The notes under the pieces: model-generated
Seen by the model: only the letters and a program-made list of their open reading frames with translations
The model's database searches: none
Told to the model about the DNA's origin: nothing
Shown here: positions 28,583 through 58,300 of the stretch, piece after piece
Position numbering within the stretch: the first letter of the stretch is position 1
Layout: every line of letters begins with the position of its first letter
Translations under genes and position numbers: made by a program
Source of the DNA: Nonomuraea turkmeniaca
GTDB lineage: Bacteria; Actinomycetota; Actinomycetes; Streptosporangiales; Streptosporangiaceae
Assembly: GCF_005889735.1 (NCBI RefSeq)
Contig: NZ_VCKY01000011.1
Coordinates: 1 to 64,000 of the forward strand
Length of the DNA: 64,000 bases
Direction: 5' to 3'

Positions 28583-28680
28583 CCGGCCGCACGTCAGACC
28601 GGCCGGACGACCCGGCCGCACGTCAGACCGGCCGGACGACCCGGCCGCACGTCAGACCGGCCGGACGACCCGGCCGCGGG
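28583..28680. repeat. Three tandem copies of a 29-bp unit plus a partial copy
   Basis: Units begin at 28583, 28612 and 28641 with CCGGCCGCACGTCAGACC and are identical; a partial copy starts at 28670. Each contains CCGGCCGG. The array lies 3' of hadB at the right edge of the decayed element, so it may be a terminator-like cluster or a junction scar. Confidence 0.92.
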
Positions 28681-28686
28681 TCAGGG

Positions 28687-41740: not shown

Positions 41741-43969
41741 TCAGTAGTCCTCGACCACGTTTTCCCGTTCGGCCCGGCAGAGATCCGCCCAGTAGTCCAA
41801 GCCGATGGACTGGTAGATCTCCGCTGCGGCGGCGTACGCGAGGCCGGCTTCGTGCTTGTGGTCCCGCGCGTGCGCCAGCTGGGCCAGCCCGAGGATCGCG
41901 TTGGCCTGGCCCAATCGGTTCCCGATCTCCTCGTACAGGTCGCGAGCCTGCGTGAAGGCCTCCTCAGCCGACCCGTCGTCACCCCGCATGGACGCGACCT
42001 CGCCCAACCCCCGCAGCGCGTGAGCCTGGCCGAGGCGGTCCCCGATCTCCTCGTACAGGCTGTGAGCCTGCCTGTACGCCTCCTCGGCCGGTCCGTCCTC
42101 GTCCCGCATCCGCGCGATATCGCCCAGGCGCCACATCGCGCCGGCCTGGCCCAGGCGGTCCCCGATCTCCTCGAACAGGCGGCGAGCCTGCCTGTACGCC
42201 TGCGCAGCCGGGGCGAACTCCCCTCGCGTGAACGCGACGTCACCCAAGCCCTGCAGCGCGTGGGCCTGACCCGTCCGGTCCCCCGTCCCCTCGTACAGGC
42301 CGCGAGCCTGCCTGTACGCCTCCTCGGCCGGCCCGAACTCCCCTCGCACGAACGCGACGTCACCCAGGCCGTGCATCGCGTCGGCCTGGCCGCTCTCGTT
42401 CCCGATCTCCTCGTACAAGCCGCGAGCCTGCCTGTAGGCCTCCTCCGCCTGGCCGAACTCGCCCCGCATGGCCGCGACCGAGGCCAGGCCGTACATCGCG
42501 CCGGCCTGGCCCGATCGGTCGCCTTGGGCGACAGCGGTATTTCTCATGGCGGTATAGAGATCATGGGCCTGGAGGTAGCGGTCGTTCAGGCGCAGCCACC
42601 AGGCGACCTCGTTGGCGAGCGCGAGCGCCTTCGGATGCCTCTGGGCGAGCGCGATGTCGGCGGCCACGCGCACCTCGCTGGTGGCGGCCATCAACCAGGA
42701 ACGGGCCTGGCCGGGGGATCCGAAGGACGGATCGCCCGGGGCGGTCGTGGTGAGCATGCTGATCGCGATGCGGACGTGGTCCCGCAGGGTCGCGTACAGG
42801 CGATCGTGCCCGGCCCGCCGTTCGTCCGCCGAGTCCTCGGCATCGGCCTGCCGGCGGGCGCATTCGAGGAAGACGTCGTGGAAGCCGTAGCGGTCGGTGG
42901 GCTGGCGCGTCAGCATGGCCTCCGCGGCCAGCTCGTCCAATCGCAGCCTCGTCACCGATGGGGACAGTCCGGCGAGGGGCGCGATGGACCGGACGTCGAA
43001 GTCCGGCCCGGGGTGCCAGGCACAACAACGCAGCACCTGCCGCTGACCGGTGTCCAACGCCTGGTACGAGACCGTGAACGCGGCTCGTATCGCCTGATCG
43101 ACCTTGGTCATGTGCCGGAACCGCCGGCCGCCGTCACGCATGGCCTCGGTCATCAACTCCAACACCATGGCCGGGTCCTGGCGGGCCAGCAACCGCCCCA
43201 CCGGATCGAGCGCCAGGGGCAACCACCCGCACAGCCGCGCCACATCCGCCAGGATGCCGTCGCCGGCCAGCGGCCGCCGAGCCCGCCGCCGAAGCAGGCT
43301 CACCGCCTCCGGCGGATCCAAGAGATCCACGGGGAGGCGGTCCGCATCGTCCAGGTCGTCCAGACTGGACCGGCTGGTGATCAAGGTCAGGCAGTGCGGC
43401 GCGTCCTGCGGCAACAACGGCATGACCTGCTCGACGGTACGGACATTGTCGAGCAACAGCAGCACCCGGCGCCCGGCCAGCCATCCCCGCCACAACCGCG
43501 ACCGGCCATCCAGGCTGCCGGGAATGTCCGCCGCTTCGAACCCCGCCCACCCGAGCAGCTCGGCCAGCACGTCACGCGGGTCGGCAGGGTCGGTGTCCGG
43601 GGTGAAGCCGTACAGGTCCACCTCCACCCGCGCATCGGTGAACCGCTCCTTGACCTGGACGGCCACGGCACGGGCCAGCGCCGTCTTGCCCACCCCCGCC
43701 ATGCCGTGAACCGCTGAGATCAACAGCGGGCGGCCCTCCCGCAGCGCCGCGTCCACCTTGCCGACCAGGGCCGCGATCTCTCCGTCCCGCCCCACCATCG
43801 GGGGCGGCGCCACCATCGGCAGCAGAGTCACGTGCGGACGCGAGACCCCGTGGAAATGCACATGCTGCGTCCCCTCCCCCTGGACGGCCATCTGAGAGTT
43901 GTCGTACGCGGACGCCTTCATGTCCCGTGCGTCTGGTCCCAGCGGCAACGCGCGCTCGGGCCCGGTCAT
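41741..43969 (-). CDS. NLR-like NB-ARC ATPase with six C-terminal TPRs (amyloid-motif N-terminus)
   Basis: This 742-residue STAND protein has three parts. Residues 1-50 are flexible and contain AVQGEGTQHVHFHG (28-41). Residues 55-420 are an NB-ARC ATPase: Walker A AVHGMAGVGKTA (86-97), Walker B RRVLLLLDN, sensor LTLITSR, the GLPL-like CGWLPLALD, and a winged helix with VLRCCAWHPG. Residues 480-722 are six TPR repeats of exactly 40 residues. NB-ARC/TPR proteins are ATP-switched signal oligomerisers. The gene lies 9 bp after a small protein that ends with the matching motif AVQGQGVQNVTFG, so the two probably form a sensor-effector pair. Confidence 0.9.
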   Translation of the reverse strand: MTGPERALPLGPDARDMKASAYDNSQMAVQGEGTQHVHFHGVSRPHVTLLPMVAPPPMVGRDGEIAALVGKVDAALREGRPLLISAVHGMAGVGKTALARAVAVQVKERFTDARVEVDLYGFTPDTDPADPRDVLAELLGWAGFEAADIPGSLDGRSRLWRGWLAGRRVLLLLDNVRTVEQVMPLLPQDAPHCLTLITSRSSLDDLDDADRLPVDLLDPPEAVSLLRRRARRPLAGDGILADVARLCGWLPLALDPVGRLLARQDPAMVLELMTEAMRDGGRRFRHMTKVDQAIRAAFTVSYQALDTGQRQVLRCCAWHPGPDFDVRSIAPLAGLSPSVTRLRLDELAAEAMLTRQPTDRYGFHDVFLECARRQADAEDSADERRAGHDRLYATLRDHVRIAISMLTTTAPGDPSFGSPGQARSWLMAATSEVRVAADIALAQRHPKALALANEVAWWLRLNDRYLQAHDLYTAMRNTAVAQGDRSGQAGAMYGLASVAAMRGEFGQAEEAYRQARGLYEEIGNESGQADAMHGLGDVAFVRGEFGPAEEAYRQARGLYEGTGDRTGQAHALQGLGDVAFTRGEFAPAAQAYRQARRLFEEIGDRLGQAGAMWRLGDIARMRDEDGPAEEAYRQAHSLYEEIGDRLGQAHALRGLGEVASMRGDDGSAEEAFTQARDLYEEIGNRLGQANAILGLAQLAHARDHKHEAGLAYAAAAEIYQSIGLDYWADLCRAERENVVEDY
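41804..42523 (-). repeat. Six in-phase 120-bp repeats encoding the TPR array
   Basis: The repeats follow G(D/N)RxGQAxAxxGLGxVA pattern units of exactly 40 codons; runs such as AEEAYRQARGLYE recur almost unchanged and the DNA is near-identical over long stretches between neighbouring units. This indicates recent duplication or gene conversion, common in TPR sensors under diversifying pressure. Confidence 0.9.
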
Positions 43970-50247: not shown

Positions 50248-50272
50248 ACCGAGCGCCCGTTACGCTTCGACG

Positions 50273-51298
50273 ATGGATGTGATCTTTCCTCGCAAGCTGA
50301 ACGAGGGCGACGTCATACGCGTGGTGGCGCCGGCCAGGTCCCGCGCGATGGTGATGGAGCATGACCACACCGACATCATCGGGCCTCGGTTCGCCGAGCT
50401 CGGCCTGACACTCTCCTACGGCAACCACGTCGATGAGCGCGACGCCTTCGACTCCACCAGCATCGCCTCACGGGTCGCCGATCTGCACGAGGCCTTCGCG
50501 GACCCGTCAGTGGCCGCGATCCTGACGGTCATCGGCGGCTACAACTGCAACGAGCTCCTGCCGTTCCTGGACTGGGAGCTGATCCGCGCCAACCCGAAGA
50601 TCTTGTGCGGATACTCCGACATCACCGCCCTGCAGAACGCCATCCTCGCCCGGACCGGGCTGGTCACCTACTCCGGTCCCCATTGGTCGACGTTCGGGAT
50701 GCGAGATCACTTCGAGCAGACTCTGCGCTGGTTCACCTCGGTCATGTTCGGCACCGCTCCGATCGCCCTCGCCCCCGCGGCGCACTGGAGCGACGATCTC
50801 TGGTATCTCGACCAGGACAAACGTGAACTGATCCCCAACGACGGATGGTGGCCGATCCGGCCCGGCACCGCCGAGGGACGCATCATCGGCGGCAACCTGT
50901 GCACGCTGAACCTGCTGCAAGGCACCCCGTACATGCCGTCCCTCGACGGTGTGATCCTTGTCGTCGAGGACGACCTCGAGTCACACCCGGCCACCTTCGC
51001 CCGCGACCTGACCTCACTGCTGCAGCTGCCCGGCGCTCCGGGGATCCGCGGCCTCGCGATCGGACGCTTCCAGCACGCCAGCCACATGACCCGCCCGCTA
51101 CTGGAACAGATCATCGACGCCCAACCGGCGCTGACCGGCATCCCCGTCCTGGCCAACATCGACGTCGGCCACACCTACCCGCTGGCCACCTTCCCGATCG
51201 GCGGCCAAGGCCGGCTCGCCGTCAGCGACACCGAACCCGCGACCGCGGCCGAGGCCGAGGCCGAGGCCGAGACAAGCGTGACGCTGCTCCGCCACTGA
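50273..51298 (+). CDS. S66-family LD-carboxypeptidase, MccF-like
   Basis: This 341-residue peptidase has a Ser-Glu-His triad: Ser in KILCGYSDITALQNAIL, Glu in VILVVEDDLESHPA, and His in VGHTYPLATFPIGG. The GGYNCNELLPFLDWELI block is close to the MccF branch, which cleaves the amide of microcin C-type aminoacyl-nucleotides, rather than the LdcA branch acting on muropeptides. The C-terminus carries a short Ala-Glu repeat. It could give immunity to an aminoacyl-AMP mimic. It starts 25 bp after the DUF1835 gene. Confidence 0.87.
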   Translation: MDVIFPRKLNEGDVIRVVAPARSRAMVMEHDHTDIIGPRFAELGLTLSYGNHVDERDAFDSTSIASRVADLHEAFADPSVAAILTVIGGYNCNELLPFLDWELIRANPKILCGYSDITALQNAILARTGLVTYSGPHWSTFGMRDHFEQTLRWFTSVMFGTAPIALAPAAHWSDDLWYLDQDKRELIPNDGWWPIRPGTAEGRIIGGNLCTLNLLQGTPYMPSLDGVILVVEDDLESHPATFARDLTSLLQLPGAPGIRGLAIGRFQHASHMTRPLLEQIIDAQPALTGIPVLANIDVGHTYPLATFPIGGQGRLAVSDTEPATAAEAEAEAETSVTLLRH

Positions 51299-51611: not shown

Positions 51612-52223
51612 CTAGCGCAGGCGTGCCAGCCAGCGGCCGTGCGCCGTCCAGCAGTCGGCTTCCACGAACCCGCCGGCCAGTGCGACCCGCCGGATGTCGT
51701 TCGCAGAAACGGTCGCCCAGCCGAACCATTCCCCGGCGAGCGGCCCCCGGCGTAGCCGGAGCCGGTCGACCCGGCTTCGTGTCCCGGGCGGCGCGACCTC
51801 GGCCAGGATCGTGCCGCCCGGCTCCAGGAGCTGCCTGACCCTGCGCAGCAGCGCTTCGGGGTTGCCACCGATGCCGATGTTGCCGTCGGCGAGCAACGCC
51901 GTCGCCCAGCGGCCGCTGCCGGGCACCTCGTCGAAGACGTCTCGGAGCAGGGCGAACCCTCCGGCGCGGCGGGTCAGGGCGACCGCGCGCGGTGTGATGT
52001 CGATGCCGAGTGAGCGGATCCCGCGTCGGGTCAAGGCCGCCGTGAGACGTCCGGGACCGGAGCCGATGTCCAGTGTGGGGCTGGAGCAGCGGCTCAGGAG
52101 TTCCTCGTCCCCGTCGATCGGCTCGAACCACCGTGCGGTCTCCAGCGTGACGCGGGTGCCGTCCACGTACTCGATCTCGGCGGCCTCTCCCGCGAGGGCG
52201 TCGGCGTAGATCTCCCCGATCAT
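51612..52223 (-). CDS. Class I SAM-dependent methyltransferase
   Basis: The 203-residue frame from the ATG at 52221-52223 has the SAM-binding motif I PTLDIGSGPGRLTAAL, motif II IRSLGIDITPRAVALTRR, the acidic ALLADGNIGIGGNPEALL, and a C-terminal beta tail GGFVEADCWTAHGRWLARL. Its acceptor is unknown. Its start overlaps the stop of the truncated DUF2064 frame (ATGA). It is also in frame with the upstream glycosyltransferase because of a 29-bp duplication, so it may be made as a fusion, from its own start, or both. Confidence 0.85.
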   Translation of the reverse strand: MIGEIYADALAGEAAEIEYVDGTRVTLETARWFEPIDGDEELLSRCSSPTLDIGSGPGRLTAALTRRGIRSLGIDITPRAVALTRRAGGFALLRDVFDEVPGSGRWATALLADGNIGIGGNPEALLRRVRQLLEPGGTILAEVAPPGTRSRVDRLRLRRGPLAGEWFGWATVSANDIRRVALAGGFVEADCWTAHGRWLARLR

Positions 52224-53702
52224 CGGTTCAGCTCCCGGAGTGCGGCGGCGAAACAGGACGCGGACACCTCGGCGGCCACGGCCGGACTGCGCGGCAGAGT
52301 CAGCCGGGTCTTGACCCTTCCGGGCAGCGGCTCCTCGGCGATGATCACGATCTGGGGCATTGGCGTATCTCCGCTTGGTGTGGCCGGCGGACGGCCCAGC
52401 CGATTGGTGTGGCCGGCGGACGGCCCAGCCGATCAGTACGGCCAGCGCGGCCGCGGCGTAGAAGGGGGTTCCTGGGCTGTCGGGGGCGACCGGGCCGGCG
52501 GTGTAAGCGACCGCGCCCGCAAGGGCCACGCCCAGCCATTCCCACCGGCCGTCCATGGCGGCCAGCGCGACGACCAGCAGCGCGTACCAGGAGTACCCGG
52601 GGGTGAACAGCAGGAGCAGCGAGCCGCTGACCAGCAGCGCGCCCTCCCAGGGCCGGTCGGCGTCGCCGTACCGCAGGACGAGAAGGACGACCAGGCCGAG
52701 TAGCGCGATCGCGGCATATGGGGCCCACGAGTCCGGCATGAGCAGCCGCAGGACCGCGTAGCGGTTGCCGCCGCCGGGTCCGTCGTAGCGCTCCTCCTTG
52801 AGGTAGCCCGGCAGGTAGCCCACCACCGACGCTCCCGAGGCCAGCACATAGGGCAGGTAGGACAGCGCCACCACGAGCACGGCAGGCACCACGGTGCCGA
52901 GGACGCGCCGCCACGCCACGCCGTTCGCCAGCACGCCGGACAGGGCGCCGGGGAGCGCTGTCACGGGCAGCAGCTTGGCCGCCACGGCTGCGCCGAGCAG
53001 CGCGCCGCGGGCGCGACCGGCGCGGACGGCGCTGAAGGCCAGCACCACCAGCAGCACGCCGAGCATGTCGACGTGCGCGTTGTTCACGGCCTCGACCGGC
53101 ACCGCGGGGCACCACGCCCAGTACGCCGTCCGGCGGGCGCCCGCGAGCCGGCACAGCGCCACCAGCGCCAGCACGGCCATCGCCCAGCCGCCGAGTTGGA
53201 GGGCCTTGTGCCGCGAACCCTCCGGCGAGAGCCAGTGCAGCAGCAGGAAGTACCCCTGCGCGACCGGCGGGTAGATCGTGGGCTCGGTGGGGCGGTTGAT
53301 CCGGGTGCAGCCGTCGACGGGCAGGGGCCACAGATCGGGGGCGCCGCAGTCCGGCGGGAAGAGCCAGTCGTCGCGCAGCGGGACGAGCGCCGGGTCGGAC
53401 GGCGGGTGGTCGTAGGGGGAGATGCCCGCGGCCTGCACCCGGCCGTCCCATGCGTACCGGAAGGAGTCGGTGCTGCTGCTCGGAGGGGCCGCCAGCCCGG
53501 TTGCGGCCAGCGTGATCCCACCGGCGACGACCAGCGCACCGAGCCGCCGTTCCGGCACCCGCCGGGCCAACCACAAGGCGGACGCGAACAGCGCCCAGGC
53601 CAGCAGGTACCAGTCCAGGCCGGGTGGCCCGGCCACCATCCTGAGCAGGACGGCCGCCAAGGCCACGAGGGTCCCGCTGACCGCGAGCAAGCTTCGGCGC
53701 AC
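51612..53702 (-). CDS. GT87-like polyprenyl glycosyltransferase reading through into the methyltransferase
   Basis: From the GTG at 53700-53702 (GAGG upstream) the frame encodes a ten-or-more-helix membrane glycosyltransferase with the signature DSFRYAWDGRVQAAGISPYD, an acidic DWLFPPDCGAP loop and PTIYPPVAQGYFLL, as in actinobacterial polyprenol-phosphate-mannose mannosyltransferases. It would normally stop at 52345, after GWAVRRPHQAEIRQC. A 29-bp duplication at 52375-52432 shifts the frame, and it now stays open for 696 codons through a linker into the methyltransferase. Both domains look intact; whether the fusion is made is open. Confidence 0.75.
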   Translation of the reverse strand: MRRSLLAVSGTLVALAAVLLRMVAGPPGLDWYLLAWALFASALWLARRVPERRLGALVVAGGITLAATGLAAPPSSSTDSFRYAWDGRVQAAGISPYDHPPSDPALVPLRDDWLFPPDCGAPDLWPLPVDGCTRINRPTEPTIYPPVAQGYFLLLHWLSPEGSRHKALQLGGWAMAVLALVALCRLAGARRTAYWAWCPAVPVEAVNNAHVDMLGVLLVVLAFSAVRAGRARGALLGAAVAAKLLPVTALPGALSGVLANGVAWRRVLGTVVPAVLVVALSYLPYVLASGASVVGYLPGYLKEERYDGPGGGNRYAVLRLLMPDSWAPYAAIALLGLVVLLVLRYGDADRPWEGALLVSGSLLLLFTPGYSWYALLVVALAAMDGRWEWLGVALAGAVAYTAGPVAPDSPGTPFYAAAALAVLIGWAVRRPHQSAGPSAGHTKRRYANAPDRDHRRGAAARKGQDPADSAAQSGRGRRGVRVLFRRRTPGAEPMIGEIYADALAGEAAEIEYVDGTRVTLETARWFEPIDGDEELLSRCSSPTLDIGSGPGRLTAALTRRGIRSLGIDITPRAVALTRRAGGFALLRDVFDEVPGSGRWATALLADGNIGIGGNPEALLRRVRQLLEPGGTILAEVAPPGTRSRVDRLRLRRGPLAGEWFGWATVSANDIRRVALAGGFVEADCWTAHGRWLARLR
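52220..52360 (-). pseudogene. Truncated DUF2064 (CofC-like) glycosyltransferase
   Basis: MPQIVIIAEEPLPGRVKTRL and the following LPRSPAVAAEVSASCFAAAL are the N-terminus of DUF2064/TIGR04282 nucleotide-sugar transferases, normally about 210 residues. This frame stops after 46 residues, overlapping the methyltransferase ATG. The rest of the gene is missing, so it cannot be active. Confidence 0.75.
52375..52432. repeat. 29-bp perfect tandem duplication in the glycosyltransferase 3' end
   Basis: Positions 52375-52403 and 52404-52432 are identical, starting TTGGTGTGGCCGGCGG. As 29 is not a multiple of 3, it changes the downstream frame: with one copy the gene would end at 52345; with two it opens into the methyltransferase. 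Confidence 0.95.
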
Positions 53703-53832: not shown

Positions 53833-53928
53833 GTGAGAGTGATGGTCACCGGCTCGGCCGGTTTCATCGGGGAACACGTGGCCGAGATCGGCTTCGACGC
53901 GGGTACGAAGGAGTTCGCCCGGTCATGA
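53833..53928 (+). pseudogene. Epimerase reduced to its two ends
   Basis: This 31-codon frame reads VRVMVTGSAGFIGEHV, the NAD-binding start of an NDP-sugar epimerase (SDR), directly joined to AEIGFDAGTKEFARS, which resembles the C-terminus of such enzymes. The 250-300 residues in between are gone. Its stop overlaps the ATG of the GT2 gene (ATGA), so the original operon coupling is preserved. Confidence 0.65.
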
Positions 53929-54587
53929 CGATCGACGTCATCCTGCCTTGCCTGGACGAGGAAGCCGCGCTCGGCTGGGTGCTGGGGCGCATGCCCGACG
54001 GCTACCGCCCGATCGTGGTCGACAACGGCTCCACGGACCGCTCCGCGGAGATCGCCCGCGACCTCGGGGCGCGGGTGGTCCACGAACCCAGGCGCGGCTT
54101 CGGCGCCGCCTGCCATGCCGGGTTGCTGGTCTCCTCCGCCGAGCTGGTCTGTTTCATGGACGCCGACGCCTCGCTCGACCCCGCCCAGCTTCTCCGAGTG
54201 GCCACCCCTGTGCTCGACGGGCGCAGCGACCTCGTACTCGGACGACGCGTACCGCAGACCGCGGGGGCCTGGCCCCCGCACGCCCGGCTGGGCAACGCCG
54301 TCCTCGCCGGCAACCTGCGCCGCCGCACGGGTGCGCCGCTGCACGACCTCGGCCCCATGCGGGCGGCCAGGCGCTCGTCGCTGCTGGCGCTCGGCCTGAC
54401 CGACCGCCGCTTCGGCTATCCCCTGGAGATGGTGTTGCGCGCCGCCGCGGCCGACTGGCGGATCACCGAGGTGGAAGTGGACTACCTGGCACGGACGGGA
54501 CGCTCCAAAGTGACCGGCACCCTGCGCGGGACGCTGCGCGCCGTCGCTGACATGCGGCGGGTCATGGCCGAGATCCGGCCCGGTTGA
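53925..54587 (+). CDS. GT2-family glycosyltransferase
   Basis: This 220-residue GT-A enzyme has the nucleotide-binding start VILPCLDEEAALGWVL, the VVDNGSTDRS loop, and the metal-binding DAD in ELVCFMDADASLDP, followed by a C-terminal FGYPLEMVLRAAA region. It lacks membrane helices, as in the dolichol-phosphate-mannose synthase-like subgroup, so it may make a polyprenyl-linked sugar for the neighbouring GT87-like enzyme. It is translationally coupled to the epimerase relic. Confidence 0.88.
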   Translation: MTIDVILPCLDEEAALGWVLGRMPDGYRPIVVDNGSTDRSAEIARDLGARVVHEPRRGFGAACHAGLLVSSAELVCFMDADASLDPAQLLRVATPVLDGRSDLVLGRRVPQTAGAWPPHARLGNAVLAGNLRRRTGAPLHDLGPMRAARRSSLLALGLTDRRFGYPLEMVLRAAAADWRITEVEVDYLARTGRSKVTGTLRGTLRAVADMRRVMAEIRPG

Positions 54588-54932
54588 CCAGGTTCTCCGG
54601 CCAAGCTCGGCGCCATGGGGCCGGCCAGCGGCCTCGAGCTGGCGGGGGCGCAGCGGCCGCCCTCGGAGATGTGATCACCACATCGGCGGACCCGGCGCCT
54701 TCCAAGCCCTGACGGCACTCGGTGAAGGACTACGCCCCGGCGATGCAGCCGACCTACGAGCCGCGCTCCGCCCGCTGCGCGGGGCTCAGCGCATCGTCGG
54801 CGACCACGTCGGAAACGCCCAGCCGGGCGCCCGCCCGGCTGGGCTTGGCCAGCGCCAGCGCCAGCGCCAGCGCCAGCATCTCCTCGGTCATGTCGAGCCG
54901 CGGACATCGGCTTTCCGATCGCATGAGGGGGA
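54588..54932. other. Intergenic, about 345 bp, with a (GCCAGC)5 run
   Basis: No gene is supported. A GCCAGC hexamer is repeated five times at 54848-54877. A plus-strand stretch (HIGGPGAFQALTALGEGL) looks protein-like but has no start signal or recognised family. Confidence 0.5.
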
Positions 54933-55505
54933 TCAGCGCAGGTGCCGGCAAATGGCGTGGCGGATCTGCTCGGGCGTCATCGGGTCGGTCGACAGGGCGC
55001 TGTGCAACACGAGCCCTTCGATGAGCGCGTCGAGTTCCCGGGCGGTGGTGGCGTCGAAGTGGCGTTCCAGCGCTTGGCGACTGCGCGCCATCCAGGCCTG
55101 GGTGACGGTCCTCAAGGCCGGGTTACGCGCTGCGGCCACGTACAACTCCACGCTGAGGACGAGGTCCTGCCGTGCGCCGAGCAGGTCGTCCGACACCAGC
55201 GTGATGACCGCCTCGATCGCCGCGTCACGATCCCGGGCGGCGCTCAGACGCTCGTCGAAGACGCGGGCCACCGAGTCGGCGTGCCGGGTGAACGCCTCGG
55301 CGAGCACCTCGTCCAGGGACGCGAAATGGTAGGTCATCGAACCCAGCGGCACGTCCGCGGCGCGGGCGATCTCCCGGTGCGTCGTCCCGGCGACGCCGCG
55401 CTCGGCGATGACGGTGAGCGCGGCGTCGATCAACCGGTCCCGCCGCCCGGGGTCGTGCCGGCGCGGCCGCCGCGGGACCGGTGACCGCGGGGTGGGGCCG
55501 CTCAT
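54933..55505 (-). CDS. TetR-family regulator
   Basis: This 190-residue regulator has a basic N-terminus, a helix-turn-helix (RLIDAALTVIAERGVAG, THREIARAADVPLGSMTYHF) and a helical effector domain. Its ATG overlaps the stop of the upstream acetyltransferase (ATGA), so both come from one message. The inverted repeat upstream of that operon is its most likely target, giving autoregulation. Confidence 0.88.
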   Translation of the reverse strand: MSGPTPRSPVPRRPRRHDPGRRDRLIDAALTVIAERGVAGTTHREIARAADVPLGSMTYHFASLDEVLAEAFTRHADSVARVFDERLSAARDRDAAIEAVITLVSDDLLGARQDLVLSVELYVAAARNPALRTVTQAWMARSRQALERHFDATTARELDALIEGLVLHSALSTDPMTPEQIRHAICRHLR

Positions 55506-56089
55506 GCCGTACCCGGCCCGATGGCGCGGATCACGCGGGCGGGATTGCCCACGGCGACGACGTTCGCCGGGAGATCGCGCGTGACCACCGCGCCGGCGCC
55601 GACGACGGTGTTGTCCCCGATCGTGACGCCGGCCAGGACGATCGCCCCGCTGCCCAGCCATACGTTGTCGCCAATGGTGATCGGCTTCGCGGCCTCCCAC
55701 TTCGCCCGGCGGGGCTCCGGATCGACCGGGTGTGTCGGCGTCATGAGCTGCACGTACGATCCGATCTGCACGTCGTCGCCGATGGTGATCGGCGCGACGT
55801 CCAAGGCGACGAGACCGAAGTTGGCGAACGACCTGGCGCCGATGTGGATGTGGCTGCCGTAGTCGACCCGCAGTGGCGGCCGGATCTCCGTGCCCTCACC
55901 GATCGCACCGAGCAACTCGGTGAGCAGCCGGCGCCGCTCCTGCGGATCACGGGCCGACGTCGCGTTGTACGCGTCCATCAGGTCCATGGCCCGCAGGTTG
56001 TGCTCGGCCAGCTCCGGGTCATCGGCGATGTACAGGTCGCCGGCGAGCATCCGCTCACGCATCGAGCGGCCATCGAAGTCAGACACCAT
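55502..56089 (-). CDS. Maltose/galactoside O-acetyltransferase-like LbH protein
   Basis: This 195-residue left-handed beta-helix acetyltransferase has the Maa N-terminal helix pair (MRERMLAGDLYIADDPEL) and hexapeptide turns such as IGDDVQIGSYVQLMTPTHPV with the catalytic His, ITIGDNVWLGSGAIVLAGV and TVVGAGAVVTRDLPANVVAV, then the terminal GNPARVIR. It acetylates sugars with acetyl-CoA. The ATG at 56087-56089 is preferred over upstream codons inside the operator region. Confidence 0.9.
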   Translation of the reverse strand: MVSDFDGRSMRERMLAGDLYIADDPELAEHNLRAMDLMDAYNATSARDPQERRRLLTELLGAIGEGTEIRPPLRVDYGSHIHIGARSFANFGLVALDVAPITIGDDVQIGSYVQLMTPTHPVDPEPRRAKWEAAKPITIGDNVWLGSGAIVLAGVTIGDNTVVGAGAVVTRDLPANVVAVGNPARVIRAIGPGTA

Positions 56090-56091
56090 AC

Positions 56092-56124
56092 GTACAAGCG
56101 TACACATCTCATGTACGCACGTAC
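56092..56124. promoter_or_regulatory. Candidate TetR operator upstream of the acetyltransferase-tetR operon
   Basis: GTACAAGCGTACA (56092-56104) and TGTACGCACGTAC (56112-56124) form an inverted repeat matching at 11 of 13 positions, 7 bases apart. It sits just upstream of the first gene of an operon that ends with a tetR gene. Confidence 0.65.
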
Positions 56125-56204
56125 ATATCACTGGGTCTGGTCCGCGCCGGCCACGATGTGCTCCGCTTCTCTTCGGCGAGCCGGGCACACTGAAGCCGAC
56201 AAGG

Positions 56205-57194
56205 TCACCCTCGGGGCACCGGTGAGGTCGTTGCGCCGGCCGACAACAGTCTTTCCGCCAGCACGCGACAGCGCGCCCTCAGCTCCGGAGGGTCGAGTAC
56301 CTCGAAGTCGTGCCCCAGCAGGACCATGTGCATGAGCACGAAGTCGAGGCTGCGCCCGCCACTGAGCACCTCGCAGCGCTCGCTCCCCCGCGGTCGTACG
56401 ACGGCCGCCGACGCCGGAATCTGCGCGCGCACCGTGTCGGCCGGCGCGTGCACGAGGAAGCGCGCCTGGTGCGGGTAGACCCGGCTCGCCACGCTCTCCT
56501 GCACGTACGTCGCCGCGTCGGGCGCGGCGCGCGGGCGGAAGCGCCAGGTCCGTGCGGACACGTCGGTCATCCGGTCGACACGGAAGCTGCGCCAGTCGTC
56601 GCGATCGAGGTCGTAGGCGAGGAGGTACCAGCGCCGGTCGGAGGCGACCAGGCGGTAGGGCTCGACCCGGCGCCGTCGTACCTCGCTCCCGGACGGGTAG
56701 CCGAAGCCGGCCTCGACCTCGTCGCGGCAGGCTCTGGCCAGCGTCATGAGCACGTCGGGGTCGACCGGCGTACGGCCTCCGCCGAAGGACTCCACCGAGC
56801 CGGAGAGCGCGCGCACCTCGTGCCGCAACCTGGTGGGCAGCACCCGGTCGAGCTTGGTCAGCGCCCGGAGTGCGGCGTCGCCGGCGCTGGCGACCGCGCC
56901 ACCCGCTCCGACGAGCAGCGAGACCGCGGTGGCGATCGCCTCCTCGTCGTCGAGCAGCAGCGGCGGCAGGTCCTGCCCGGGACCGAGCTGGTAGCCGCCG
57001 CCGACACCCTGGCTGGCATGCACCGGATAGCCGAGCGTGCGCAGCCGCTCGACATCACGACGTACGGTGCGCGGCGTGACCCCGAGCCGGTCGGCGAGCT
57101 CGGGGCCGGTCCAGATCTGGCGCTGCTGCAGCAGCCCGAGCAGGGTGAGCACCCGCTCCGTCGTGCCCCGCTCGTCGCCGCTCGCCACTTCCAT
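56205..57194 (-). CDS. WYL-domain transcriptional regulator
   Basis: This 329-residue protein has an N-terminal DeoR-like helix-turn-helix (ERVLTLLGLLQQRQIW, TGPELADRLGVTPRTVRRDVERL), a WYL domain (VEPYRLVASDRRWYLLAYDLD, followed by WRSFRVDRM) and a WCX C-terminal part (FEVLDPPELRARCRVLAERL). WYL regulators bind nucleic-acid or nucleotide ligands. It is divergent from the DinB-VOC operon, with 60 bp between them, and is a likely regulator of it. A GTG nine bases upstream is an alternative start. Confidence 0.9.
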   Translation of the reverse strand: MEVASGDERGTTERVLTLLGLLQQRQIWTGPELADRLGVTPRTVRRDVERLRTLGYPVHASQGVGGGYQLGPGQDLPPLLLDDEEAIATAVSLLVGAGGAVASAGDAALRALTKLDRVLPTRLRHEVRALSGSVESFGGGRTPVDPDVLMTLARACRDEVEAGFGYPSGSEVRRRRVEPYRLVASDRRWYLLAYDLDRDDWRSFRVDRMTDVSARTWRFRPRAAPDAATYVQESVASRVYPHQARFLVHAPADTVRAQIPASAAVVRPRGSERCEVLSGGRSLDFVLMHMVLLGHDFEVLDPPELRARCRVLAERLLSAGATTSPVPRG

Positions 57195-57254
57195 GTCACT
57201 CACCCTGCCAGATAGCGGACCGATTCTGTCCGCCAGGGGTGTCAGGGTGGCCCC

Positions 57255-57842
57255 ATGGACGCAGACGAACTCGACTGGAACCGGACGCTGCGCGAGCAGT
57301 GGGAGTTCCACTGGAACCATCAGCTCCGAGCTCGGCTCGACGGCCTCACCGACGACGAGTACTTCTGGTCTCCGGTGCCGGACGCCTGGAGCGTGCGACC
57401 GCGCGGCAGCTCGACGGCGCCCGTACAGGCCGGCGCCGGGGACTTCACGATCGACTACGCCTTCCCCGAGCCGGTGCCCGCGGCCTTCGCCACGATCGCC
57501 TGGCGACTCGGCCACGTCATTGTCGGCGTGCTCGCCGCGCGCAACGCGGCGCACTTCGGCGCGCCGGCGGCGTCGTACGAGACCTGGGAGTACGCCGGCA
57601 GCGCGGCCACCGCGCTCGACCAGCTGGAGACCCAGCTCGACGTCTGGCTGGCCGGAGTGCAAGGACTCGGGGAGGCTGGACTCCGGGTCCCGGTCGGCGA
57701 GAAGGAGCCCTACCCCGAGGCGCCCATGGCCGATCTGGTGCTGCACATCCACCGCGAGCTGATCCACCACCTGTCCGAGGTCTGCCTGCTGCGCGACCTC
57801 TACCTGCACACGAACCCCGCTACGAACGGAGCAACCCGATGA
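57255..57842 (+). CDS. DinB-family protein
   Basis: This 195-residue protein has a DinB four-helix bundle with the putative metal ligands in RLGHVIVGVLAARNA and in HIHRELIHHLSEVCLLRDLY. DinB-fold proteins often transfer a thiol cofactor or bind metal; the exact role is unknown. Its stop overlaps the ATG of the VOC gene. Confidence 0.85.
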   Translation: MDADELDWNRTLREQWEFHWNHQLRARLDGLTDDEYFWSPVPDAWSVRPRGSSTAPVQAGAGDFTIDYAFPEPVPAAFATIAWRLGHVIVGVLAARNAAHFGAPAASYETWEYAGSAATALDQLETQLDVWLAGVQGLGEAGLRVPVGEKEPYPEAPMADLVLHIHRELIHHLSEVCLLRDLYLHTNPATNGATR

Positions 57843-58300
57843 GCCGCCACATCCAGGTCACCTTCGACGCCCATGACCCGCAGGCGCTGTCGTCCTTCTG
57901 GCGCGACGCACTGGGCTACGTCCACCCCGGCCCGCCCGGAGTCGACCTGCCCGAGGGCGCCGACCCGCTGGCCGCGTGGGACGACTTCCTCGAGCGGGTC
58001 GGCGTGCCGAAGGAGGAGCGCAACACGAGATCGGCCCTCGAGGACCCGGACGGGCGCGGCCCGCGGCTCTTCTTCCAGCAGGTGCCGGAGGACAAGGTCG
58101 CCAAGAACCGCGTCCACCTCGACGTCCGCGCGGCACCCGGACTGCAGGGGGAGGAGCGGATGGCGGCGCTGGAGGCCGAGTGCGACCGGCTCGTCGCGCT
58201 CGGAGCGACGCGGGTACGTCGCGACGAGGCCGTTCCCCCGATGGGCGCCGGCTTCATCGTGATGACCGACCCCGAGGGCAACGAGTTCTGCCTGGACTAG
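57839..58300 (+). CDS. VOC (glyoxalase/bleomycin-resistance fold) protein
   Basis: This 153-residue protein has the two-module VOC fold: IQVTFDAHDPQALSSFWRDA with the first His, and RVHLDVRA plus MTDPEGNEFCLD with the second His and Glu of the metal site. It starts in an ATGA overlap with the DinB gene. VOC proteins include dioxygenases, glyoxalases and drug-binding proteins; DinB-VOC pairs hint at detoxification of an electrophile or antibiotic. Confidence 0.88.
   Translation: MSRHIQVTFDAHDPQALSSFWRDALGYVHPGPPGVDLPEGADPLAAWDDFLERVGVPKEERNTRSALEDPDGRGPRLFFQQVPEDKVAKNRVHLDVRAAPGLQGEERMAALEAECDRLVALGATRVRRDEAVPPMGAGFIVMTDPEGNEFCLD

Follow-up and report, generated by a model that had tools for sequence, protein, structure and literature searches.

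We consider it likely that two sugar-processing clusters of five genes in the genome of Nonomuraea turkmeniaca, one resident and one acquired, decayed reciprocally and now jointly encode a single gene set. The frame in which a GT87 glycosyltransferase of the acquired copy runs on into a methyltransferase (MT) would then be a late by-product, which may yield a bifunctional protein. The cluster would comprise genes for an epimerase, a GT2 glycosyltransferase, GT87, a protein of the glycosyltransferase-like DUF2064/TIGR04282 family, and MT, and it appears to be present twice in the genome. One copy lies in the window, by which we mean the whole 64,000-nucleotide stretch that was analysed, and includes the following features (evidence in parentheses).

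51612-52223, minus strand: class I SAM-dependent methyltransferase with its own ATG (Pfam Methyltransf_11, identity with N. lactucae, dN/dS)
52220-52360, minus strand: DUF2064/TIGR04282 remnant of 46 codons, whose stop overlaps the MT start as ATGA (partial TIGR04282 match, relatives)
52232-52236, minus strand: GGGAG, 8 nt upstream of the MT ATG, a possible ribosome-binding site (same pentamer in relatives)
52375-52403, minus strand: 29-bp unit, copy adjoining the DUF2064 remnant (exact repeat)
52404-52432, minus strand: 29-bp unit, copy adjoining the GT87 core (exact repeat)
52433-53702, minus strand: GT87 glycosyltransferase core with a GTG start, the frame continuing without a stop to 51612 (Pfam PF09594, frame, dN/dS)
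53833-53928, plus strand: 31-codon remnant of a 326-aa NAD-dependent epimerase, whose stop overlaps the GT2 start as ATGA (comparison with relatives)
53925-54587, plus strand: complete GT2 glycosyltransferase (Pfam PF00535, identity with N. glycinis, dN/dS)

Genes and Gene Remnants in the Window

The GT87 and MT products matched their Pfam profiles above the respective cut-offs (PF09594, E 1.5e-9, 38.4 bits against 25; Methyltransf_11, E 2.2e-7, 31.8 bits against 21.2), and the GT2 product matched PF00535 with an E value of 8.9e-19. The amino acid identity of MT with its N. lactucae counterpart was 93%, and that of GT2 with N. glycinis was 90%. An ATG was confirmed at 52223, where the original prediction had placed the MT start. 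The GGGAG pentamer was found at the site upstream of MT in 12 of 19 loci (the 18 loci described below and N. lactucae), with GCGAG in N. glycinis; its conservation may have a cause other than ribosome binding, as it lies inside DUF2064 codons.

In 18 Nonomuraea loci, a DUF2064/TIGR04282 gene was located between GT87 and MT. This set consisted of Nonomuraea loci with the three genes on one strand, taken one per contig. Same-contig duplicates were left out, as were loci with GT87 on the strand opposite to MT (L016, L019, and L056), with GT87 as the only one of the three genes (L010 and L018), without GT87 (L021 and L034), or without MT in the locus (L055). The loci of Streptomyces, Streptacidiphilus, Acrocarpospora, and Pseudomonas were also left out; those of them with both genes differ in gene order. 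The length of the DUF2064 protein was 208 aa in 15 of the 18 loci, 212 aa in one, 257 aa in N. thailandensis, and 156 aa in N. jabiensis. In 17 loci, its stop codon and the MT start shared 4 bases, and the distance between GT87 and DUF2064 in N. maritima was about 1.5 kb.

Comparison with four close relatives demonstrated that the window is missing 486 bp of this gene, equal to 162 codons and in frame, so that what remains is approximately the first 26-30 and the last 16-20 codons of the 208-aa gene, in an open reading frame beginning MPQIVIIAEEPLPGRVKTRLTLP. The junction lies near 52269-52282, with the best join between remnant bases 78 and 91; the ambiguity amounts to 13 positions in the comparison with N. 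longispora and to 2-3 in the remaining three. The N-terminal part of the remnant resembled the family at positions 1-41 of the TIGR04282 profile (E 5.9e-4; 19.7 bits, below the NCBIfam cut-off of 134), and a Pfam scan of the remnant gave no match. Since it differs from the family in the absence of 162 of 208 codons, the DUF2064 copy in the window is very unlikely to be functional. Over 72 nt, the remnant carried six bases unique to the window, five of them at codon positions 1 or 2, as against 0-3 in each of the other 20 rows of the 21 compared, and it was changed at a Lys and a Pro that are invariant in those 20 rows. Over 24 codons, pN was 0.08-0.10 vs. 0-0.02 in three control pairs; the pairwise dN/dS of the remnant (0.21-0.44) overlapped the range of the retained genes.

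In relatives, the genes for a 326-aa epimerase and for GT2 form a divergent operon and overlap by 4 bases. From the epimerase, the window has lost 885 bp (295 codons), also in frame, with the junction near 53880-53890 and up to 10 ambiguous bases in seven comparisons. The remnant contained two window-unique bases, both of which change an amino acid, one at a Met invariant in 16 other rows. However, two or three unique bases were also counted in 5 of these 16 rows; the window count is thus not unusual, which weakens the argument for decay of the epimerase scar. Both deletions, of 486 and 885 bp, are divisible by three, a coincidence expected in one of nine cases (hand calculation). Elsewhere in the genus, the GT2 gene of G050 (C2:6820099-6820752) showed one in-frame TAA in the search alignment.

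Tandem Duplication and the Joined Reading Frame

The exact 29-bp repeat at 52375-52403 and 52404-52432, from which the original prediction set out, was recovered both by sequence comparison and by Tandem Repeats Finder. The two copies are identical, the matching run is 30 bases in the window sequence, and the program reported an array at 52371-52433 with a period of 29 and 2.2 copies. Given the base composition and periods of 10-100, approximately 1.4e-9 exact tandem repeats of such length are expected by chance in the window; thus, the repeat represents a real duplication. Allowing up to 9 mismatches, the unit had a single match in 12 of the 18 Nonomuraea loci, no match in six, and two matches in none. 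A frame that leaves the second copy in its original phase ends at 52345 with GWAVRRPHQAEIRQCPRS followed by the stop codon; the single-copy end proposed for GT87 was right, apart from the last residues, PRS. This C-terminus resembles that of N. glycinis (GWAARRPHRAELRH, then the stop). Because two copies were found in 0 of the 18 loci and the single-copy C-terminus is N. glycinis-like, the duplication is, by this comparison, derived in this genome. With 2.2 copies of 29 bp, it does not have the form of a typical multi-copy simple repeat array. Two further arrays were observed in the window: one at 28583-28684, in which a different unit, again of 29 bp, recurs in tandem (3.5 copies, 97% match), and one at 41895-42479, with 120/240-bp repeats in up to 4.9 copies, which perhaps encodes protein repeats.

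The frame starting with GTG at 53702 extends over 696 codons and closes only at the MT stop, 51612. As had been predicted, it joins GT87 to MT, with no stop between them in the sequence as assembled. Since the duplication removes the GT87 stop, a ribosome translating GT87 would have to read into MT. The linker comprises about 60 residues, of which about 45 overlay the 46-codon DUF2064 remnant (52360-52220) in another frame; the predicted linker peptides include one ending in PHQSAGPSAGHTK and another, TPGAEPMIGEIYADALAGEAAEIEYVDGTR. Because the position of the MT start codon and the upstream GGGAG are kept, a free MT beginning at MIGEIYADALAGEAAEIEYVDGTR would still be expected beside the fusion.

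The proposal that a slippage event creates the fusion was borne out in part. The derived duplication does remove the GT87 stop, but it did not join the genes alone, since DUF2064 stands between them in relatives and a 486-bp deletion has occurred here. The reading in which the fusion came first was rejected because relatives show a gene between GT87 and MT. Comparison with relatives, which had been suggested as a check, revealed the same in-frame fusion in 0 of the 18 loci, as it had a second 29-bp copy; the fusion is thus not one shared with these relatives. The open frame was also considered as a sign of selection and rejected: in 7 of the 18 loci, no stop interrupts the MT frame upstream over the full length of DUF2064, and in three the GT87 frame itself enters DUF2064 by 116 bases without any duplication. 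Such frames are common in relatives and therefore do not indicate selection for the fusion.

A search of solved structures gave matches on the MT part alone. The GT87 family presumably includes PimE. This GT-C mannosyltransferase has both termini in the cytoplasm (PMC12041525), so a cytoplasmic MT tail on GT87 is at least possible. The window protein is similar to GT87/GT-C enzymes such as PimE in its Pfam GT87 match above the cut-off, and differs from them in a C-terminus extended by the linker and MT.

A Complementary Cluster on Contig C47

The same genome (G000) carries the window genes on contig C22 and a second damaged cluster on contig C47 (L058, 14550-16728). The epimerase of the C47 copy is full (326 aa) and 85% identical to that of N. 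glycinis. Its DUF2064 covers residues 2-203 with 80% identity and matches both Pfam DUF2064 (E 3.4e-31) and TIGR04282, the latter above the cut-off; the last few residues are gone, and the frame runs into about 50 foreign residues. Of GT2 and GT87, remnants only were detected (residues 7-27, about 21-29 codons, and residues 338-373, respectively), corresponding to about 87 and 109 bases kept in comparison with the N. jabiensis cluster. No significant match to MT was found on C47.

Whole-genome searches yielded one close copy per gene: epimerase and DUF2064 on C47, and GT2, GT87, and MT on C22. Each of the five genes is full-length in exactly one copy, the C47 DUF2064 being counted without its last few residues. 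Any way of dividing the genes between the copies would look complementary if each of them has to survive once. The only further DUF2064 match in the genome was the window scar, and the next epimerase and GT2 matches, among the matches listed, were about 40% identical. Both cluster copies lie in one genome, the assembly of which is a draft of 592 contigs with an estimated contamination of 3.08%, leaving some room for contamination.

Reciprocal (complementary) loss after duplication is the idea known as duplication-degeneration-complementation. The present case is similar to it in that there are two copies of the gene set with each gene kept in one of them, and in the low dN/dS of the retained genes. 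It differs in that one copy is probably resident and the other acquired, rather than both stemming from a fresh duplication, and in that two of the lost genes left in-frame scars in which the overlap with the following gene is preserved.

Phylogenetic Analysis

In an rpoC tree of 24 genomes with motif-checked rows, from which G046 is absent, N. turkmeniaca was sister to G047 (100/100). The DUF2064 from C47 clustered with G046 and G047 (97/94), and the C47 copy therefore is probably resident; the tree of the C47 epimerase gave it no resolved position. The window GT87 and GT2 each paired with N. glycinis (97/93 and 99/96, respectively), and the window MT fell together with N. glycinis, N. lactucae, N. 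deserti, and N. longispora (99/98). These groupings suggest that the window copy was probably acquired from the N. glycinis/N. deserti group, and it is from them that we infer the direction of transfer. The clusters L012 and L020, of N. longispora and N. deserti, look hybrid: their GT2 grouped with N. jabiensis, and their GT87 and MT with the N. glycinis group.

In a comparison of ten genomes, the flanks of the window cluster were mosaic. Positions 50257-51234 and 54900-56135 had their best matches in G047, followed closely by G023 and G002, and positions 56236-58298 matched the N. glycinis group best; no common insertion site was found in this comparison. As a species marker, rpoB had no match in the N. 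turkmeniaca assembly. The same combination, rpoC found and rpoB without a match, was seen in the G049 assembly, and several genomes of the genus show two rpoB genes.

Selection and Distribution in the Genus

Pairwise dN/dS of the window GT87 was 0.22 against N. glycinis and 0.32 against N. deserti. The values were 0.18-0.25 for MT, 0.20 for GT2, 0.18-0.24 for the C47 DUF2064, and 0.32-0.34 for the C47 epimerase; all of them include the time before the losses and cannot tell what came since.

The cluster is widespread in the genus. By hand tally, 41 of 54 genomes matched all five genes, eight matched none, and five matched some. For epimerase and GT2, the tally took in matches from about 70% identity upwards, a level below which two of the match lists were truncated; among the 41, some matches are partial or in pieces, and G000 was counted with both contigs pooled. 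The partial sets were a weaker GT2 match only in G008, GT87 only in G033 (63% complete), all but MT in G038 and G051, and neither DUF2064 nor MT in G053. The five genes of G047 are spread over three places, and partial clusters are not rare. In N. lactucae (L021), DUF2064 and MT are close to those of the window, and no GT87, epimerase, or GT2 match was found within about 5 kb on each side.

Truncated or broken DUF2064 copies were detected in G000, G023 (two copies), and G045, in each case beside a further, nearly complete copy in the same genome. Such copies thus occurred in 3 of 14 multi-copy vs. 0 of 29 single-copy genomes (hand-calculated p ~0.03), a count that left out G003 (contig end) and G013 and G026 (insertions). 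The type-1 cluster of N. jabiensis likewise contains a shortened DUF2064 with the frame kept (156 aa) and a full-length copy elsewhere in the genome; unlike in the window, its GT87 is unfused, and the matches to the four genes other than DUF2064 are nearly full-length. N. jabiensis has two shortened DUF2064 genes in all (L008, 6369-6835, and L128, 2628-3092), and a third, full-length one (L128, 7790-8410) adjoins an extra methyltransferase.

Discussion

The reciprocal decay that we favour may have proceeded as follows. In the window copy, probably acquired, two internal deletions would have eliminated epimerase and DUF2064 in frame, leaving of each gene its start, its stop, and its 4-base overlap with the next one. 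The C47 copy, probably resident, would have lost GT2, GT87, and MT and kept epimerase and DUF2064, so that the two clusters together would form one complete gene set. The 29-bp duplication at the 3' end of GT87, late in the order of events that we infer, would have removed the stop, and translation of GT87 would continue across the DUF2064 scar, in a frame other than that of the scar, and on into MT. The expected products are a 696-aa GT87-linker-methyltransferase and a free MT from its own start. The composition of the five-gene set suggests that it makes a methylated sugar passed via a polyprenyl-phosphate carrier, if the families have the roles that we assume for them, DUF2064 being presumably nucleotide-sugar transferase-like. 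A bolder version, in which one pathway is run from two reciprocally deleted clusters, the trims resemble designed non-polar deletions, and the duplication made a working membrane-anchored bifunctional GT87-MT beside the free MT, appears unlikely to us.

It is quite improbable that slippage made a new GT87-methyltransferase fusion enzyme that was selected as such and is perhaps phase-variable. The frame open over 696 codons, an exact duplication with no such pair in any of the 18 other loci, and the permissive topology suggested by PimE (PMC12041525) are what such a fusion would show; but the linker is mostly an out-of-frame reading of the DUF2064 remnant, MT keeps its own start, the fusion is absent from 18 of 18 loci, and high-GC DNA often leaves a frame open by chance. 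A 29-bp unit present in two copies is also unlike the arrays that are typically hypermutable, which speaks against phase variation.

Wrong joins in the assembly could in principle have produced the deletions or the duplication, or C47 could be contamination from another strain in an assembly of 592 contigs with 3.08% contamination. Short matching stretches at both deletion junctions, the failure to find rpoB in the assembly, and an epimerase remnant that is no more changed than some intact relatives would agree with such an artefact. Nevertheless, we regard it as distinctly improbable: the DUF2064 remnant carries changes at residues that do not vary among the 20 other rows, and a wrong join would not create these; neither deletion disrupts the frame; the C47 DUF2064 clusters with the species that is sister in the rpoC tree; and the genome contains no other close epimerase or DUF2064. 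The least probable reading is that both clusters are simply decaying after loss of the pathway, with complementarity arising by chance. Since 8 of the 54 genomes match none of the five genes, the set is dispensable, and pairwise dN/dS partly reflects pre-loss time. On the other hand, dN/dS is 0.18-0.34 for all five retained genes, one full copy of every gene remains, and having all five genes or none is a tendency among the genomes.

Among the matches listed in a literature search, neither the five-gene cluster nor the fusion is described in the titles and the opening parts of the abstracts. Reciprocal decay of the two clusters would have consequences for annotation, as calling either cluster complete would mislead, and so would annotating the 696-aa frame as one enzyme. 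The case partly documents the steps by which an acquired cluster may partly replace a resident one: genes are lost reciprocally, in-frame scars are left without harm to the genes downstream, and a change of frame joins two neighbours. The case also predicts which genes at two distant loci must work together, which would help to assign a function to this cluster.
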